From the NCBI GenBank assembly GCA_026929865.2, contig CM049414.1, positions 930,001 through 994,000 on the forward strand: 64,000 nt of DNA, given 5' to 3'. The notes below the pieces were generated by a model. That model searched no databases. It saw only the letters and a list, made by a program, of their open reading frames with translations, and was not told the origin of the DNA. This stretch comes from Hyperoplus lanceolatus. Its lineage: Eukaryota; Chordata; Actinopteri; Uranoscopiformes; Ammodytidae. Of this stretch, positions 4,518 through 42,400 are shown piece after piece; position 1 is the stretch's first letter; every line of letters begins with the position of its first letter. The translations under genes and the position numbers were made by a program.

Positions 4518-7500
4518 CTGTGGATCAAACACACCACAGATGTACAAAAACTTTTCCACAATATACACTATGGTCCAGTTTCACAGACATGGATTACGCC
4601 AAGTCCTGGAGCAGGAATATTGCATAGTCGATCACATGGATATGAAAGCTGTGTTATGTTTACGTAACAACCCAATTCAAATATTTCACTCACTAAAATT
4701 ACTGAATAATTGTGGTAATAATCAGAAAAAGCTTTATTTATCCCAAGAAGGGCAATTTAGTTTACAGTTCCAGTTCGCAGTAAAAAAAATTATTTAAATA
4801 AATACTATAAAAAGCAGTACGAGGTAGAAAATAACATAAATAGACAACAGCAGTCCAACACACAAATTCAACTCGCATTCATTTCAACTCAACCTGTCAG
4901 AACAACCACCCATCTACACTGGTGCTCTCCACCTACTCCTGACTCTTGTGATCATTCAGGCTGTATCTCGATTCAGGGGTTGCGGTCTACGAAGGCTGCG
5001 TTTGAAGACCGATTGCGTCATAGCGGCGCGCAAAGGTTGTTCCATTTGCAAGGCTCCTTGCAAGGCTCCTCATATGCAGCCGTGAAATGCAGCCTTCGTT
5101 TCACGGTTTTGAAGGCTGCATCAGATGAATCCTTCGCAGCCCAACATATCCCATGATTCATTGCGTTTTTTTCAGAGATGGCATACAATAAAATAAAAAA
5201 AACAACAAAACAGCAACGTGTTGCTCCATCTTCTTAACTTTTATCTTCCTTTCTTTTTTTCTTGTACTTTTTTTTTTCTTTTCATCTGGTAGGCAACTTC
5301 TTTTTCTTTTTTCCTCTGTTGACAAGGCTGTTTCCGTTGGCAGCTATCAGGGTTGCTAGGCAGCACAGGAGCGGCGAGATCTCACGCAAGGTAACGGCTT
5401 GTTACGCAAACCGGAAATGCTCGTAAATGGAGACCTGTGGAGACCGTGCCGTTTAACAACGCTCGTTCGGTCCTGGTTCGGCCTTCGAATCGGCCTTCAT
5501 AGGCTATAGCCTTCATAGACCGCGTCCTACCAAGGAGGCGGTCTCTGTAATGGGATACAGCCTCAGTAACCTGATGGCTGCAGGAATAAATGAGTGTGAG
5601 TATCTCACTGATCTTGCCCTGATTGAAAGATAGCGCCGCCTGCAGGGCAATAGTGTGAATTCCTCACTGAGGACATGGTCAGGCTGACTCATAATGCATT
5701 TGGCTTTCTGGACGGCATGTTTGTCCCACAATGAACGTATGCTCTTCAGCTGGATTCCAGTGATCTTTGAACAGATCTTTACAATGTTATTTAAACTGTT
5801 CTGGTCCTTCACTGACAGACAGTTAAACCAGCATGTAAATGAAAAAGTTAAAAGACTCAAAATAACTTTGGAGACACTGAAAGAGTTCTCAACAAGTGAA
5901 CTTTTGTTGTCCCTTTTTCACAATGACCTCAGTATTTGCATGAAATTTAAGCTGGTTATCAAATACTGTGCCTAGATATTTGTAGGTGTCACTGTCTACA
6001 AGTTGGACTTCCTCCCCATGGATAGCACTCGGTTCAGGCTCTCCCTTCACTTTCCTAAAATCTATGACTAATTCCTTTGTTTTTTCTACATTCAGATCTA
6101 GGAAGTTGTCATCACACCATTTAACAAATGATGTCAAAGCAAGGCCATGGCTGCAGTGTGGACCTTGGAAAAGAGACAGCAACGCAGTGTCATCTGAGAA
6201 TTTAGCTAGATAACTTCCCGGTTGAGAGGACTGACAGCTGTGTACATGATGAACAACAGGGGTGACAGTACACACCCTTGGGGTGAACCAGTATTGGAAA
6301 TAATGGCCTGGGACAAGTGCCCATTTACAGAGACCCTCTGAGTTCTGTCTGTTAAGAAATTTAAAAGCGACAGCAGAATCTGATGGGGTAGCAAACTCAG
6401 CAGCTAGTCTCTCAATTAAAATATGCGGCTGCATCTTATTAAAAGCAGAAGAAAAGTCTGCAAATAACAGTCTAACATGAGATCCAGGCTTTACTAAATG
6501 TTTATACATTGTATCTAAAATAAAGAGCTTTGCATCATCTACACTTTGTCCAGTTTGATAAGCAAACTGTAATGGTTCAAGTTTTCCACTAACCAGAGTT
6601 TCATTCTTAATAATTTTCTCAAATTTTCATTATCAAGGATGTTAGTGCTACAGGTCTGAAATCTTATAGCTCTTTCGGATTTTTTGATTTTGCTACTGGA
6701 ATGATAGTGGACCTTTTCCACATCTGAGGTATCTGGCCTATCTTAGCACACATATTAAAAAGTGAAGTGAATACCACACTAAGCTGGTCAGCACAGTAAT
6801 GCAGCATGCGTCCACAAACAGCATCAGGGCCAGCAGCTTTGCTAATATTCACTTTCCTTAACAGAGTTGTTACTAGTTCCTGGGCTATCACAATGAAATT
6901 GTGAGGGACAAGAGATTCTCTCAACATAGAAATATTCTCAGAGAAATCAGATGATTCAAAACATGAGTAAAACACATTAAAAACATTTGGCAAATCAGAG
7001 ACATCAACACCTTTAACAGCTATCAGCTGCCTGGATTCACAAGAATTCTGATTTATGGATGCCATTGACTTAATTCCCTTCCAAGCAGCTCTGAGATCGC
7101 CCCCACTATACAGTTTTTCAACCTTCTCTCTATATTTCATTTTGGCCTTCCTAATCTCCTTTTTCACTTCCTTGAAATATATTGTGATATCAATCAATAT
7201 TGACCAAAATAATCGTGATAATCATTTTGGCCATAATTGTGCAGCCCTACACCTTTGTCATGGGTCCCTCACCCAAGAACAACAGCTGGCATAGTAAACA
7301 CTAACACTTTTGTCCAAAGGGGGTGCAAGATTTAACAAACTAAAAGTTCCGCGGTGCACCTTTAAATTAAATAAATTGACATTTCCATGACTTACCATTG
7401 TATCCTTCGACAGAGGAAACGACCAGAGGCTTAGCAATGTCCTGGTACAGCTGATCTGTGGATTCTTCTGCTGTGAAGACTCGGTCTGAGAAGGAAAGAT

Positions 7501-9706: not shown

Positions 9707-10952
9707 CAGTAGCGGCCTTAGCTATGTTTCAACCCATTCAATTGAATGGGGCCCCGCCCTCTGGGGGGCCCCCAAGCCCCCCCTAAAAAAATATATATAT
9801 ATTTTTTTTTTGATAAATAATTCTTGAGCAGGCTACCGGGCCCTAGGCCTCATAGTAACTTTTTATGTTGCATTGTCAAAGAGCTCAGTCACTCATGTCA
9901 ATAACAGGGTCCAAAAAGGAATAAGCCTAAATATAAGGAAATAAATCATCATGGGCCCCTCAACTAGTAGGGGGAGAAATACAAAAGCATAAGATAACAG
10001 CATTAGTAGCTCTGTCTAAGGGGCTTCATGATGAGCCTTTAGGGCCCCCACACACATACAGGAATACGATTTCTATGTGTAAATTCTATGCTGTTCATAA
10101 AAAGTAGCTATCCACCCTGTATCTGTTGAAATGAGTCTCTCCATCATAGAACATGGGTCTGCAGACAAATCTACTGTTTTTACAGTAGCAGAGTAAAGAG
10201 TGCTGCCTGATTAAGAAAAATCTGAAAAATAATGTTCCTGCTGCATCTCAGGATTTGATATAGCCTCTAAATTCTCCCCTCAAAGTACACCAGATTGATG
10301 CATTTTAATTCATCGGTAACACTTTACAATAAGGTACACAAAAAAAGAGTAGTTACCCTTTTGAAAAGGTTAGTTACCCTTTTCAAAAAGGTTAGTTACC
10401 CTTTTGAAAAGGTTAGTTACCCTTTTCAAAAAGGTTAGTTACCCTTTTCAAAAGGTTAGTTACCCTTTTCAAAAAGGTTAGTTACCCTTTTGAAAAAGGT
10501 TAGTTACCCTTTTCAAAAGGTTAGTTACCCTTTTCAAAAGGTTAGTTACCCTTTTCAAAAAGGTTAGTTACCCTTTTCAAAAGGTTAGTTACCCTTTGGG
10601 CAACTAACCTTTTTGAAAGGGTAACTAACCTTTTCAAAAAGCGTAACTAACCTTTTTCAAAAGGGTAACTAACCTTTTTCAAAAGGGTAACTAACCTTTT
10701 CAAAAGGGTAACTAACCTTTTCAAAAGGGTAACTACTCTTTTTTTGTGTACCTTATTGTAAAGTGTTACCAATTCATCTCATAAAACTCTACAATCTGTT
10801 TTCTTTTTGCGGAAAGCATGCACAAGCGTGCACAAGAAATATGTATTAGAAAAAAAAAATTAAGATTTTTTTTTTTCAAGAAAATACAAAAAAAGTGGGG
10901 GGCCCTACACTAGGTCTTGAATGGGGCCCCCAGATCATTAAGGCCGCCCCTG
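9707..10952. mobile_element. hAT-like element Z nested in X
   Basis: Ends CAGTAGCGGCCTTA and TAAGGCCGCCCCTG. The interior is non-coding with runs of GGGGCCCC near both ends. It interrupts X inside the TTGGCCG...ACATCCGGG stretch seen intact in Y. An 8-bp duplication is not clear. Confidence 0.65.
10315..10770. mobile_element. Palindromic-array hAT element, copy 1
   Basis: 456 bp. Termini GGTAACACTTTACAATAAGG and the exact reverse complement, with perfect 8-bp target duplication AATTCATC (10307-10314 and 10771-10778), diagnostic of hAT transposition. The interior has about 11 tandem copies of a roughly 21-bp monomer (AAAAGGTTAGTTACCCTTTT) followed by about 6 copies in the opposite orientation; the strand switch is near 10600. 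It lies inside Z. No protein coding. Confidence 0.9.
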
Positions 10953-17627: not shown

Positions 17628-17759
<132 letters not shown>

Positions 17760-18140
17760 CTTTAATGAGATCAACAATAGACTATGGATGCATGGTGTAT
17801 GGAGCAGCAGCAAAAATGCACTTAAATAAAATAGATAGAGTAATAAATAAAGCATTGAGGATTTGTGCTGGGGTAATGAGGTCATCACCCATTAAAGGTA
17901 TACATGTAGAATTAAGAGAAATCCCGATAGAACTCAGAAGGGATAAAATGTTGCTTGAATACTGGAGCCGACTATAGGGATGTGGATATGAAAACCCTGC
18001 CAAAACTGTAATCCAGGAATGTTGGGAATATGGAACATGTCAAAGTAATGGGTTTGGATGGATAGCAAAAGATAAAGCAGAAGAATATAGAGTAAGTAAT
18101 ATGAGAGTGACTACTAATTCTATAAGTAAGTATAGTATAA

Positions 18141-19800
18141 TAAGTCCTCAGAAATCACTGAACTCATTCGGAAATCCAAGCCATCCACCTGTCAACTTGA
18201 CCTCCTACCCACACATCTGGTTAAGGCCTCCCTCCCCTCCCTAGTTTCTCTCATTTCTGCAATCATCCACTCCTCTCTTACTACTGGAACTGTCCCTACA
18301 TCCTTCAAAACTGCTGCCATCACCCCAATTCTGAAAAAACCTGGTGCAGACCCCTCCAACTTCAACAACTTCCGTCCTATATCCAATCTTCCCTTCATCT
18401 CCAAAACCCTGGAAAAGACAGTTGCCTCCCAACTCCATTTTCACCTATCTGACAATAACCTTTACGAACAGTTCCAGTCCGGATTCCACCCACTCCATAG
18501 CACTGAAACAGCACTTATAAAGATCACCAACGACCTCCTTATGGCAGCTGATTCTGGACTACTCACCATCCTCATCCTCCTGGACCTGAGTGCAGCCTTT
18601 GATACCATCTGTCACACCACGCTCCTCAACAGACTATCCTCCATTGGCATCACCGACACTCCGTTTGACTGGTTCTCTTCTTATCTTTCTGGCCGTACCC
18701 AATTTGTCCAACTAAAGTCTTTTATATCCATCCCCTCCCCCGTCACCTCAGGGCTCTGTCCTGGGGCCCCTACTCTTCATCATTTACCTCCTTCCCCTCG
18801 GCAATATCTTCCGCAAATTTGACATTCATTTCCACTGCTATGCTGATGACACCCAGCTCTACCTCTCCACCAATCCCTCATTCACTCTCCCGCCCACTTC
18901 CCATTCTGATTGCATCTCTGAAATAAAAACCTGGCTCACCTGCAACTTTCTCAAACTCAACAGCAATAAAACAGAAGTTCTCCTCATCGGCACCAAATCA
19001 ACCCAGACAAAACCTGACAGCTTTTCCATCACTATCGACAACACCTCAGTCTCCCCCTCCCCTCAGGTTAAGAGTCTGGGTGTCATCCTCGACAGCACAC
19101 TGTCACTCCAAGCACACATCAATAACATCACCAGGTCTGCCTATTACCATCTACGCAACATAAACTGCCTCCGCCCATCCCTCACACCCCATAGCACAGC
19201 CATCCTTGTTCACACCCTGGTCACTTCCCGCATCGATTACTGTAACTCCCTCCTCTTCGGTCTCCCCCTCAAGTCCATCCGTAAGCTTCAACTGGTCCAG
19301 AACTCTGCCACCCGCATCATCACCAGAACCCCCTCCATTAATCACATCACTCCTGTCCTTCAGCAGCTTCACTGGCTCCCGGTCAAAACCCACATCCACT
19401 TCAAGATTCTGCTCCTCACCTTCAAGGCCCTCCACAACCTCGCCCCTCCATACATGTGACCTTCTGCACACCAACACACCCACCCGCACTCTCCGTTCCT
19501 CCTCTTCCATTCAACTAACTGTTCCACCCGCCCCACCTCTGGGACACCCTCTGACATCCGTAACTCTGACACTCTCTCCACTTTTAAGTCCCGTCTAAAA
19601 ACACATCTTTTTAAACTGACATATTCAATCTAGTTCATTGTCTCCCACCCATTTCACCCCACTTGTGTAAATTGTTTCAATGTATCTTGTTCTTGTGTTT
19701 TTTATGATTGTTGATTTTGATTTTAAACACTGCCCTGTAAGGTGACCTTGAGTGCTATGAAAGGCGCCCTCAAATAAAATGAATTATTATTATTATTATT
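18141..19800 (+). mobile_element. L2-type LINE, 5'-truncated
   Basis: Reverse transcriptase in broken frames: FRPISNLPFISKTLEK (about 18370), LDLSAAFDTICHTTLLNRL (about 18580), [12 protein letters not shown] (about 18840), and a C-terminal domain with [13 protein letters not shown]-like sequence (about 19230). It ends GCTATGAAAGGCGCCCTC then an (ATT)n tail, typical of L2. It interrupts the I-type LINE between the end of RT and RNase H. The long frame on the opposite strand is a shadow. Confidence 0.85.
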
Positions 19801-21180: not shown

Positions 21181-21907
21181 GCTACGCTACTGCAAAGCAT
21201 TGTGGACATACACAACATTTGAAAAGATCGCGATAGCTGATGGTGCGAAACTCAAACAACATGTAAAAGATCGCGCTAGCTGATAGCTTAGCCAGTAGGC
21301 TCCATAGATAGATCGATTTATTTATTGTTCTGCAAGGTTTAAAATTAGTTGTTACGTTTGGCTTATAGTAGTCATCTCTCATTATTAAGGTTAAATTACA
21401 TTTTATTTTATACGAATTTATAGTTTAGCAAGGTTTAACCCCCGGTTTTAACCCTGTTTGAGTGCTAAATTAAACATTTATTTAATAATACTTTGAACAT
21501 TGAATGAGTATTTTTAGTTTAATGTACTCTAGCATGTATTTTAAGAAATACTATTTTATTAAAAGAACAACTATCCCCTGGGTTCACTGTTATTTTACAT
21601 CACACTGAAAAACAATGTGTATAATGAGAGTTTCATAATGATATTTATCAGTTAAAAAATGTAAAGGTGTGGCTCAGATGTATAATTTCCAGCCCCTGGA
21701 GCATTTGTAGTGTCTTGCATCACTGATAAATAGATTCATTCATTCAACCTTCATTAAATAAAATAAAAAAGTACATCAGATTTTGTTTAATCTGATTTGT
21801 ATTTTACTTATTCAACCACATATACCACCTTTTGTAGTGTCTTGCAGCAATGCCATCGACTGTCCAAACAGCCTACTATTACAGTGAGTCTCTGCAGAAC
21901 ATTTCTC

Positions 21908-23476
21908 GGTAACACTTTACAATAAGGTACACAAAATTGTAGTAGCTACTACATACCTACTACATAGTTTTTTTTTTTTTGCGCTACCTATGTGTTAGGT
22001 AGCACAAAAAAAACCCTATGTGTTACCTACTACATAGTTTTTTTTTTGCGCTACCTATGTGTTAGGTAGCACAAAAAAAACCCTATGTGTTACCTACTAC
22101 ATAGTTTTTTTTTTTGCGCTACCTATGTGTTAGGTAGCACAAAAAAAAAACCCCTATGTGTTAGGTAGCACATAGGGGTTTTTTTTGTGCTACCTATGTG
22201 TTAGGTAGCACAAAAAAAACCCCTATGTGTTACCTACTACATAGTTTTTTTTTTTTGCGCTACCTATGTGTTAGGTAGCACAAAAAAAAACCCTATGTGT
22301 TACCTACTACATAGTTTTTTTTTTTGCTACCTATGTGTTAGGTAGCACAAAAAAAAACCTATGTGTTACCTACTACATAGTTTTTTTTTTTGCGCTACCT
22401 ATGTGTTAGGTAGCACAAAAAAAAACCCTATGTGTTACCTACTATATAGTTTTTTTTTTGTGCTACCTAACACATAGGTAGCGCAAAAAAAAAAACTATA
22501 TAGTAGGTAACACATAGGTTTTTTTTTTGCTACCTAACACATAGGTAGCGCAAAAAAAAAACTATGTAGTAGGTAACACATAGGTTTTTTTTTTGTGCTA
22601 CCTAACACATAGGTAGCGCAAAAAAAAAACTATATAGTAGGTAACACATTGGGTTTTTTTTTTGTGCTACCTAACACATAGGTAGCGCAAAAAAAAAAAA
22701 CTATGTAGTAGGTAACACATAGGTTTTTTTTTGTGCTACCTAACACATAGGTAGCGCAAAAAAAAAAAAACTATGTAGTAGGTAACACATAGGGTTTTTT
22801 TTTTGTGCTAACTAACACATAGGTAGCGCAAAAAAAAAAACTATGTAGTAGGTAACACATAGGTTTTTTTTTTTTGTGCTACCTAACACATAGGTAGCGC
22901 AAAAAAAAAACCATGTAGTAGGTAACACATAGGGTTTTTTTTTTTGTGCTAACTAACACATAGGTAGCGCAAAAAAAAAAACTATGTAGTAGGTAACACA
23001 TAGGGTTTTTTTTTTTGTGCTACCTAACACATAGGTAGCACAAAAAAAACCCTATGTGCTACCTAACACATAGGGGTTTTTTTTTGTTGTGCTACCTAAC
23101 ACATAGGTAGCGCAAAAAAAAAACTATGTAGTAGGTAACACATAGGGTTTTTTTTTTTTTGTGCTACCTAACACATAGGTAGCGCAAAAAAAAAAACTAT
23201 GTAGTAGGTAACACATAGGGTTTTTTTTTTGTGCTACCTAACACATAGGTAGCGCAAAAAAAAAAAAAATATGTAGTAGGTAACACATAGGGGTTTTTTT
23301 TTTGTGCTACCTAACACATAGGTAGCACAAAAAAAAAAAACCCTATGTGCTACCTAACACATAGGGGTTTTTTTTTTGTGCTACCTAACACATAGGTAGC
23401 GCAAAAAAAAAACAAACTATGTAGTAGGTATGTAGTAGCTACTACAATTTTGTGTACCTTATTGTAAAGTGTTACC
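21908..23476. mobile_element. Palindromic-array hAT element, copy 2
   Basis: 1569 bp with the same 29-bp termini as 10315-10770 and its own perfect 8-bp duplication CATTTCTC (21900-21907 and 23477-23484). The inside starts TGTAGTAGCTACTACA and then holds a roughly 70-bp tandem unit. The unit is a hairpin T8-10 / GCGCTACCTA-TGTGT-TAGGTAGCAC / A8-10 plus a spacer CTATGTGTTACC-TACTACATAG. Left of about 22450 the units run one way, right of it the other. Spacing varies by homopolymer length. Non-coding. Confidence 0.92.
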
Positions 23477-24049
23477 CATTTCTCAATGGGAATAGTTCAC
23501 TTAATGTGTGACACAGCAGGTGAATAGGGTACACTTTTGGAATAATAGATATCATGAAGCTCTGCTAGTTGATAATATTAAAACAATACATTTTTGTATA
23601 ACAACTTTTGTTTGAAACATCTAGATGTTGAATAAAGCCAGTGTTGAATCTTAATTTTCATCAATTCTTTTTATTATTTATTTTCATGATTGATGGGGTC
23701 CAGGATGGGCTGCACGATGGGGTCCTGATAACAGACAGGAAACAAAGTGTTAAAGAGATGTTCACGTTCCAATCCCCATACTTCATATCATCTTATCAAA
23801 GCTAACGCCCCCCCGCTAATGTTTATTAGCTCACGTTAGCTATCAATCTAAAGCCAAAAATATTATCTTATCAAAGCAAACGGTCATGTTATACAATGTA
23901 TGTTCAATTTCAGTAATTTGATAAGCGTATGACTAAGGTTTATCTTTGTACATTAGATTATTATTCATAGTCTTAAATTAGAAAATCATTAGAGATCGTT
24001 AACCTTAATACTTACCGAGATAGCGGGATAACCAAGTGGGATAAACAGA

Positions 24050-39400: not shown

Positions 39401-42400
39401 GTGATGCCGGTGCGCTCTTACAGCTATCACAGGTCGGGTCTACATCGGGGAACATACGAGCTAATTTAGTTTTAGATATGTGGATACGATGTACTACTTT
39501 AAATTGCACAAGAGCATGTCGGGCGCATATGGAGGTAGAGTGTATCCGATCCAGGACTGAATCCCACATGTGATCTGTGAAGGCAGAACCTAGGTCCTGC
39601 TCTCACAGGGCTCTTATAGCTGCTAATGAGGGGCTACGCAACTTCGAAATAAGGTTGAAAAACACAGAAATTGAGCCTTTTAATGTGGGTTTAACAGAAA
39701 GAAACAAATCGACATGATTGGCTTGCGGTTTATAAGGGAATTGGGGAATTAACTTCTAATTGGGGAATTAATAAAATATCTGATTTGCAGAAATCGGAAA
39801 AAATTAGTCTTTTCGATACCAAAATGTTTTGTCAATTGAGAAAAACTAGCAAATAGATCATTAATAAATAAATCACCGATGCATTTTAAGCCTTTTTTAT
39901 GCCAGATCTTGAATGCACCATCCACCGTCGAGGGAGTAAACAAATGATTAGCTGCAATTGGGCTGAAAAGTGAAAAATTCTGCATTCCCAAATTCTTCCT
40001 AAATTGGGTCCAGATTCGAAGGGAGTGCTTAATCACGGGGCTACTGTTGGGAATAGCCGAAGAGAGTGGAAGTGCGGCGCTTATGAGGGCAGATAGAGAC
40101 AATGGGCTAATAGCGCTGGACTCCATTGTTACCCAGACTGGGGCTGAGTCGTCAAGGTGAAAATGCACCCAATACACTAAAGAACGGATATTAGCAGCCC
40201 AGTAATAGTATTGGAAATTAGGGAGGGCCATTCCACCTGTTTGTTTGGGTCTTTGAAGAAAAGCTTTCCATAACCGAGGGTGTTTACCATTCCAAATATA
40301 ATTTATCATTAAAGAGTCAAGAGCCTGAAAAAAGGATTTGGGGAGAAAGATGGGGAGACATTGGAATAGATATAGGAACTTTGGGAGTAATGTCATTTTA
40401 ATTGAATTTATTCTACCTATAAGAGAGAAAGCAAGAGGAGACCACTTCGATAATATTTGCTTCGCCTGATCCAATAATTTGAGGAAGTTCGATTTAAATA
40501 GGTTTTTAAAATTTCTGGAAAAACATACCCCAAGGTAAGTCAGATGATCTGTCACCACTTTGAGTGGGAGAGCTGTGTAATCAAGTTTAAGAGCTTCTTT
40601 ATTAATCGGAAAGAGTTCGCTCTTACTCAAGTTAAGTTTATAGCCAGAAAACTGACTAAAGACCTCCAACACAGAAAGTGCCTCCGGTAAAGAGGTGGCT
40701 GGCTTGGCGACAAACAAAAGTAAGTCATCGGCGTATAAAGATACCTTATGTTCGATTCCTCCTCTCCATATCCCCTGAATCTGTTTGTTACCGCGAATGG
40801 CAATCGCAAGTGGTTCGATTGCAATAGCAAAAAGGAGCGGGCTCAAAGGACAACCCTGCCGGGTCCCACGGTGCAGATCAAAACTACGTGAGTAACGGCT
40901 GTTTGTTAATACTGAGGCAGAAGGGCATGCATATAATAATTTAACCCAAGAAGTGAAAACAGGACCCAAACCGAATTTTTCAAGGGTGAAAAATAAATAA
41001 TTCCATTTTACTCTATCAAATGCTTTTTCAGCATCCATAGAAGCGAGGCATTCTGATTCAATATTTCTGAGGGAATATAAAATGTTCATTAGCCGGCAGA
41101 TATTATAAAATGATTGGCGTCCTTTTATAAACCCAGTTTGGTCGGGGGATATGATAGAGGGGAGAACATTCTCCAATCTGTGGGCGAGAATTTTAGCAAG
41201 TATCTTCACATCCGTATTTAATAGTGAAATTGGTTGGTATGATGCACAATCTAGAGGATCTTTATCCTTTTTTAACAACAGGGAAATACAGGCCTGATAG
41301 AACGAAGGCGGGAGTTTACCTGAGTCAAATGAGTCTGAGAATACTGAACATAAAAAAGGCGACAATTCGGCTGAGAATTTCTTGAAAAAGTCAGATGGAA
41401 GCCTGTCTGGACCAGGAGATTTGCCTGATTGCATAGATGTTATTGCTGCAATAATTTCCTTCTGAGTAATAGGTGCCTCAAGGCTATGTCTCAGGTCTTG
41501 AGAAAGGGAAGGCATGTTTAGGTTACTGAAAAAGGTTTCCATCACCGTTATGTCTACTGTACAATCAGAACTATACAAATTTGAATAGAATGTTTTGAAC
41601 TTTTCGTTTATCGATTTCTGATCTGATGTTGTACACCCACTGTCTGTCCGTATTCCAGGGATGAGTTGCTTCGCTCTAAATCCGCGCAGTTGATTGGCCA
41701 GGATTTTACCAATCTTGTCACCATGCTCGTAAAAAGTACTTCTGCTCCTAAGCAACTTGACGAGAGGAAAGAAGGTTGAATTAAAATCAATTAAAATCCC
41801 CACCAAGAATAAGAGAATGGGAGTTGAGATCAGGGAGTTGAGAAAAAAATCTCTTAAAGAATTCTACATCATCAACATTAGGCGCGTAGACGTTGGCCAA
41901 GATGACTGACTTATTGTAAAGTTTGCCTGAAACAATAATAAAATGTCCATTTTTATCTGATATAATGTTTGAGGACTCAAAAGGAATATTACTATCAATA
42001 AGGATAGCTGTGCCCCTAGCCTTAGCCCTGAAATTAGAATGAAAAAATTGTCCACGCCAGCATTTACTTAATCGCCCATGGTCAGAGTCATGTAAGTGGG
42101 TTTCTTGAAGGAAAACTATTCCAGCCCTGAGCCGTTTTAGGTGGGTTAAGACCTTACCCCTTTTCACTTGGTGATTCAGCCCCTTGACATTCCAAATAAT
42201 TAAATTAAGATTGCCCTTCATCTAGCTCAGTTATAGTAAGAATAAAAAGAGTTGCTCCGATAAGAAAAAGAGTAGCAAAATACAGAGGAAAAGAAAAACA
42301 CACAAAAAAAAGGAAAACATAAATAACTGAAAACACAGCAGGTGATGACTTATCAGCTAAACCCCCAGTTAACACCAACCCACCCCACCCAGACCCCACC

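Follow-up and report, generated by a model that had tools for sequence, protein, structure and literature searches.

A transposon of opposed hairpin-unit arrays in Hyperoplus lanceolatus, probably a non-autonomous foldback element of the Merlin superfamily

The closest described parallels to the element reported here are foldback transposons and MITEs with repetitive interiors. Tetris, a foldback element of Drosophila virilis, is described as having long terminal inverted repeats with tandem repeats in variable number; its ends are common to a shorter MITE (DAIBAM), and its report gives the autonomous source as not found (PMC4079207). Galileo, a foldback-like element of the P superfamily, likewise has tandem repeats in its terminal repeats, and these vary independently in each arm (PMC3573991). 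For both elements, the repeats are either proposed or stated to provide further sites for the transposase (PMC4079207, PMC3573991), and in at least one Galileo subfamily the tandem repeats are said to carry additional transposase-binding sites (PMC3573991). In vertebrates, Xmix with Xstir, from Xenopus, is a MITE whose interior has turned into a tandem array (PMC6004289, PMC12628747, PMC9659126), and Angel, from zebrafish, is a fish MITE for which hairpin-based amplification has been proposed (PMC12628747). A survey of the Merlin superfamily describes GG ends, duplications of 8-9 bp and internal tandem repeats in several families; the words MITE, nonautonomous and non-autonomous are absent from its main text (PMC8101967).

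The present element occupies 1,569 bp, positions 21908-23476, of a 64,000-nucleotide stretch of the Hyperoplus lanceolatus genome (the window). Like Tetris and Galileo, it has inverted repeats made of variable-number tandem repeats, as seen in 19 complete copies, and its layout is known in kind from these two foldback elements and from Xmix, as their reports describe them. Tetris has units of ~220 bp and duplications of 8-10 bp, is assigned to Mutator by its authors, and has three domains (flanking, inner and middle), whereas in the present element only the ends lie outside the array (PMC4079207). Galileo differs in its superfamily, in its few repeat copies and in that transposase-derived copies are known, and within the literature covered its units are not described as hairpins (PMC3573991). 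Xmix has a TTAA target and AGGRR ends and is presumed to be a Kolobok element (PMC6004289, PMC12628747, PMC9659126); membership in Xmix/T2-MITE was rejected on the mixed 8-bp duplications and GGTAAC ends of our element. For Angel, compared by description only, the literature covered describes no tandem arms (PMC12628747).

The preliminary description of this locus knew of no named family with such a layout. Tetris, Galileo and Xmix are of this kind. Within the literature covered, no report came up of a Merlin foldback element in which opposed hairpin arrays make up nearly everything and several repeat types share one end; it may be named in Dfam or Repbase. A literature search for the end sequence and its parts found no paper; Dfam, Repbase and supplements lay outside its scope, so this is no proof of novelty. 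A widespread fish MITE may have a similar end.

The element is young, gene-less, well preserved and real. It consists of ends and interior only, with no gene and no DDE_Tnp_IS1595 transposase, and its features are as follows.

21900..21907, no strand: left 8-bp target-site duplication, CATTTCTC
21908..21970, + strand: left terminal inverted repeat, 63 bp perfect; the first 29 bp are common to the sister element
21971..22449, + strand: short arm of 7 hairpin blocks and 7 second blocks, alternating, all in + orientation
22151-22178: the one palindromic variant of the second block in the short arm
22450..22484, no strand: orientation switch, a T-tract and a reversed hairpin block, with the CTATATAG variant of the second block on either side
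22485..23413, - strand: long arm of the same units as in the short arm, all in - orientation, with palindromic variants at 23050 and 23341
23414..23476, - strand: right terminal inverted repeat, 63 bp
23477..23484, no strand: right 8-bp target-site duplication, CATTTCTC

Both ends start with GGTAACAC, and the first mismatch between the two termini is at position 64, which gives a perfect terminal inverted repeat of 63 bp. The interior was analysed with TRF, which reports a 70-bp unit in 20.9 copies with 89% matches over 21971-23430, close to the roughly 20 units of about 70 bp noted before; the perfect 8-bp duplication, the perfect termini and the element coordinates given at that stage are likewise exact. 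Along the interior, a T-tract, a hairpin block, an A-tract and a second block alternate. The hairpin block has an 8-bp stem, GCTACCTA/TAGGTAGC, and a loop of TGTGT or ACACA, and the second block is CCCTATGTGTTACCTACTACATAG. Folded as single-stranded DNA, one unit reaches -16.7 kcal/mol, as against a mean of -4.43 for its shuffles, none of which (0/200) folded as well; the unit at the switch reaches -18.2 kcal/mol. The earlier statement that every unit is a hairpin needs one correction: the second block forms a weaker hairpin. A reversal near 22450 had also been noted, and the blocks do flip there once: the last block of one orientation ends at 22449 and the first of the opposite orientation starts at 22460. 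The interior consists of two opposed arrays with one switch. As a further correction, the arms are unequal, with 14 and 27 orientation markers.

A second element in the window has the same end. When the 20-bp end was searched with up to three mismatches, the whole window gave four matches, which are the two ends each of 21908-23476 and of this sister element; 100 shuffles gave none.

10307..10314, no strand: left 8-bp duplication of the sister element, AATTCATC
10315..10770, + strand: sister element, 456 bp, with the 29-bp end of 21908-23476 and a 69-bp perfect inverted repeat
10771..10778, no strand: right 8-bp duplication of the sister element, AATTCATC

The sister unit is 21 bp long, AAAAGGTTAGTTACCCTTTTC, and is different from the ~70-bp unit. 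It also shows one switch, near 10598-10614.

The family was then sought in the source genome (807 Mb, 527 contigs). The 29-bp terminus occurs exactly 611 times in forward and 597 times in reverse orientation, and the reversed control sequence does not occur on either strand. At the full 63 bp, 40 end matches are 100% identical and one is partial, these being the best 40 of 909 candidates. Loci on three contigs (C1-C3) were studied: 17 pairs and 3 single ends from the 63-bp search, and 18 pairs and 2 single ends from places of exact 29-mers on contig C1 and part of C2, with a pair of ends 10.2 kb apart left out. Among the 38 paired elements, which include both elements of the window and L027, the 8-bp duplications are perfect in 28, have one mismatch in six and two in one, and have at least five in three. 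These perfect duplications, together with the identity of the best 40 of 909 ends, bear out the recent mobilisation proposed for the element.

At least four interior types share the 29-bp end, in elements from 122 bp upward. These are the type of 21908-23476 together with an older diverged form, the sister type (also present in L040), a palindromic AAAAGGTAAATTTACCTTTT type and a GAGTAGTTACTC type. Three members are very short (L009, 246 bp; L036, 139 bp; L038, 122 bp) and have the family ends and perfect duplications; they are either ancestors or deletion products of long arrays. In L028 (G000:C2:8602809-8605871), at about 1001-1144, a left end is followed by one hairpin unit, then by another left end that points the same way, and then by flanking DNA. 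This second left end is joined inside a second block, and an abortive event is possible. The end patterns were absent from the viral contigs and prokaryote genomes searched.

As candidates for an autonomous source, the five elements L029-L033, each above 2.4 kb, were examined, and frames were listed for L029-L032. No frame of 100 amino acids was present in L029, and L030 had one of 103 amino acids. By eye, a 394-amino acid frame in L031 looks like that of a LINE, and the frames of L032 look like those of Tc1/mariner elements. No transposase-bearing copy with the exact 29-bp end was found among the studied loci.

The orientation of the units was compared in 19 complete copies of 246-2,067 bp, namely the window element, L009-L025 and L046; 15 of them have perfect duplications. 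Three others were left out of this set: L026, whose right end is outside the stretch; L027, whose left end is not exact; and L028, with two left ends in a row and no right end seen. A single switch per copy accounts for 625 of the 627 orientation markers, the misfits being one marker of wrong polarity each in L019 and L023. There is also a stray reversed unit in L026, which is incomplete in its stretch and outside the 19. In L040, of the sister type, one marker gives a single switch and another gives two misfits.

Six of the 19 copies (the window element, L010, L011, L013, L015 and L018) share a 14-marker short arm with identical block order, small sequence variants and the same switch point; the remaining copies have other switch positions. 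In these six and in several others, the CTATATAG variant flanks the switch on one side or on both. Because the short-arm block order recurs together with the switch point at different insertion sites, the switch in this lineage is inherited across transposition and is not rebuilt. Inverted hairpin arrays persist in many copies, and the switch point can stay fixed while arm lengths change.

The preliminary description had proposed that the arrays grow by fold-back or hairpin-primed synthesis during transposition or repair. On one such reading, the inverted array would be rebuilt at each of these events. Several observations are in keeping with this: in both window elements the switch lies on a hairpin, the single-strand fold is strong, and the 19 copies vary both in length and in switch position. 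Renewal should, however, scatter switch points across all copies, and the recurrence of the short-arm block order and of the switch block with its CTATATAG neighbour at unrelated insertion sites argues against it. We consider such renewal improbable, and for the switch the proposal is not supported. The founding palindrome may still be a product of fold-back, and the gain and loss of units may be driven by hairpin slippage.

That the inverted half is an artefact of collapsed or mirrored long reads is far less credible still. The layout is present in the 19 complete copies at different sites, 15 with perfect duplications, the arms are unequal, and a second unit type, that of the sister, has the same layout. 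The one locus that might suggest an artefact is L027 (G000:C3:12911092-12915154), which has a perfect duplication, AAACATCT, but many small indels in the left arm and a cleaner right arm. Read errors in hairpin DNA could have produced this, and so could one-sided decay.

To describe how the arms differ, seven related copies (the window element, L010, L011, L013, L015, L018 and L024) were aligned in all 21 pairs after their tract lengths had been levelled. Summed over the pairs, which are not independent and so give a description and not a rate, the 25,800 aligned bases contain 236 mismatches, and 58 gaps are 40 bp or longer. Most of these gaps (46 of 58) have the size of one unit or of two after levelling, 30 being of 50-70 bp and 16 of 110-130 bp. 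The counts vary with the alignment settings; the window element and L015, for example, differ by four mismatches here and by two under other settings. The arms thus differ between copies mostly by whole units. Young insertions with near-identical ends and different unit counts make it possible to trace the turnover of a satellite array inside a transposon event by event.

The route by which units are gained and lost is one that we infer. If a left-arm unit recombined with a right-arm unit, the sequence between them would be reverse-complemented and a single switch kept, and duplications or deletions inside one arm would keep it too. With one switch and unequal arms, repeated fold-back would not be needed.

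The element had been labelled as hAT. Its 8-bp duplications suit hAT and Merlin equally, since a duplication of this length is compatible with several superfamilies, and the genome is rich in hAT transposases (150 scored matches from 722 candidates in a search with the hAT dimerisation domain). A profile search with DDE_Tnp_IS1595 (PF12762) gave 11 matches from 14 candidates, and one protein of a Merlin locus matches PF12762 at 6e-16. The ends of the element were compared with both sets of loci.

Three of the Merlin loci, A, B and C, form one group, and their left ends are all GGTAACACTTTATAATAACT. The inverted repeats of locus A (~491 bp, 97.6%) and of locus B (~557 bp, 95.8%) reach this end, and the homology between B and C starts within 1 bp of it. 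The right end of locus A is GGCAAC, and the right repeat of locus C has lost its outer portion. The second group comprises L083, with GGTAACGCTTTATATTAAGG on the 5' side, and L082, with GGTAACACTTTATATTAAGG on the 3' side; the two sides are inverted and 94% identical over ~335 bp, and the end form common to both is GGTAAC[A/G]CTTTATATTAAGG. A further locus, L080, has GGTAACACTTTATTTGAAGG on one side only. Compared with the first 20 bases of the element, A, B and C are identical at 17, L082 at 18, L083 at 17 with its G, and L080 at 16. Beyond the end, the match between the inverted repeats continues for another 18-22 bp in B, ~10 bp in L082/L083 and a few bases in A, and this A-rich overrun looks like chance. 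No target duplication was found at loci A, B and C, and a similar end is absent from five of the 11 Merlin loci (L079 and L084, ~4.5 kb on each side; L086, L088 and L089, 1.5 kb).

The exact 12-mer GGTAACACTTTA occurs six times in 78 kb of Merlin loci and in neither 97 kb of hAT loci nor the remaining 62 kb of the window, the Merlin flanks being longer; at an equal locus size of 3.2 kb it is present in one of 11 Merlin loci and none of 30 hAT loci, the other occurrences coming from the longer Merlin flanks. The inverted-repeat boundaries are stronger evidence than the 12-mer counts.

Within 1.5 kb of the hAT domain (97 kb in all), none of the 30 hAT loci contained the exact 12-mer or the 20-mer with up to four mismatches. 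Directly behind the stop codon, four of the 30 do show a one-mismatch form of the 12-mer, and a fifth locus, L078, has a different one-mismatch form, but in the four the near-match is followed by identical sequence in all copies, so these are not element ends. In a hAT control pair, L105 and L106, the similarity covers 2,872 of 2,901 bp, and the comparison did not reach their ends. The hAT duplication consensus is nTnnnnAn, which fits four of the 28 perfect duplications, as against 11 for nAnnnnTn. The element also begins with GG at both ends, and similar ends were found at Merlin loci instead. An origin as a hAT-superfamily MITE is in our view unlikely. The hAT label is probably wrong; the ends resemble those of Merlin transposase elements of the same genome (17/20 and 18/20) and do so at inverted-repeat boundaries.

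The superfamily of the element is probably Merlin rather than hAT. Its terminal inverted repeats start with 5'-GG, as in Merlin, and duplications of the Merlin length of 8 or 9 bp are found in the family (28 of 38 perfect at 8 bp, six with one mismatch). As the element contains no transposase, only a non-autonomous member of Merlin comes into question.

Tandem repetition is also present in the Merlin loci themselves. In locus A, a 150-bp palindrome and degenerate tandem repeats of ~101 bp lie within the terminal repeats, and there are direct repeats in L083, near the end, and in L080. The loci L081/L090, L087/L091/L093 and L085/L092/L094 are Merlin elements with long terminal repeats that hold the ~101-bp degenerate tandem repeats and the 150-bp palindrome. 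In L085, another sequence replaces the outer part of the right repeat.

Taken together, we think it likely that 21908-23476 is a non-autonomous foldback Merlin element with an inherited switch and arms that expand and shrink by units. A Merlin-type (IS1595-like) transposase would presumably act in trans to cut and join the fixed 29-bp ends and so leave the 8-bp duplications. An early palindromic ancestor may have had two arms joined head to head at a hairpin, and the switch of this founding palindrome would have been inherited since. Through recombination between units or replication slippage, whole ~70-bp units would be added to each arm or removed from it, often in comparison with base changes, and exchange between the arms would reverse-complement the middle, so that exactly one switch would remain and merely slide. 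That a Merlin transposase mobilises the element is a proposal, as is this account of how the founding palindrome arose. If a Merlin transposase moves these elements, the foldback layout would have arisen in a superfamily for which the literature covered contains no such report.

It is conceivable, though doubtful, that Merlin ends also generate satellites. On this reading, one 29-bp end would carry at least four hairpin repeat types, most of them built around the terminal motif GGTAA; if these copies served as extra transposase-binding sites, the transposase itself might favour arm expansion, and new satellites would arise repeatedly in one family. The density of GGTAA in the interiors of 30 elements ranges from 0 (L009 and L034) to 78 per kb, as against 1.3 in the window background. 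In the ~70-bp unit, the terminal octamer GGTAACAC sits in the standard-form second blocks, inverted relative to the end of its own arm. A link between this terminal motif and putative transposase-binding sites is only suggestive because shuffles of the units contain such motifs as well: the octamer is present in 306 of 20,000 shuffles of one 67-bp unit, and GGTAAC in 1,890 of 20,000 shuffles of a 43-bp pair of sister units.

Elsewhere in the window, LINE-like reverse-transcriptase frames (PF00078) are present at 39749-41863 (- strand), 18136-19459 (+ strand) and 5889-6626 (- strand), and TRF reports a perfect dinucleotide run, (TA)63, at 17631-17756.
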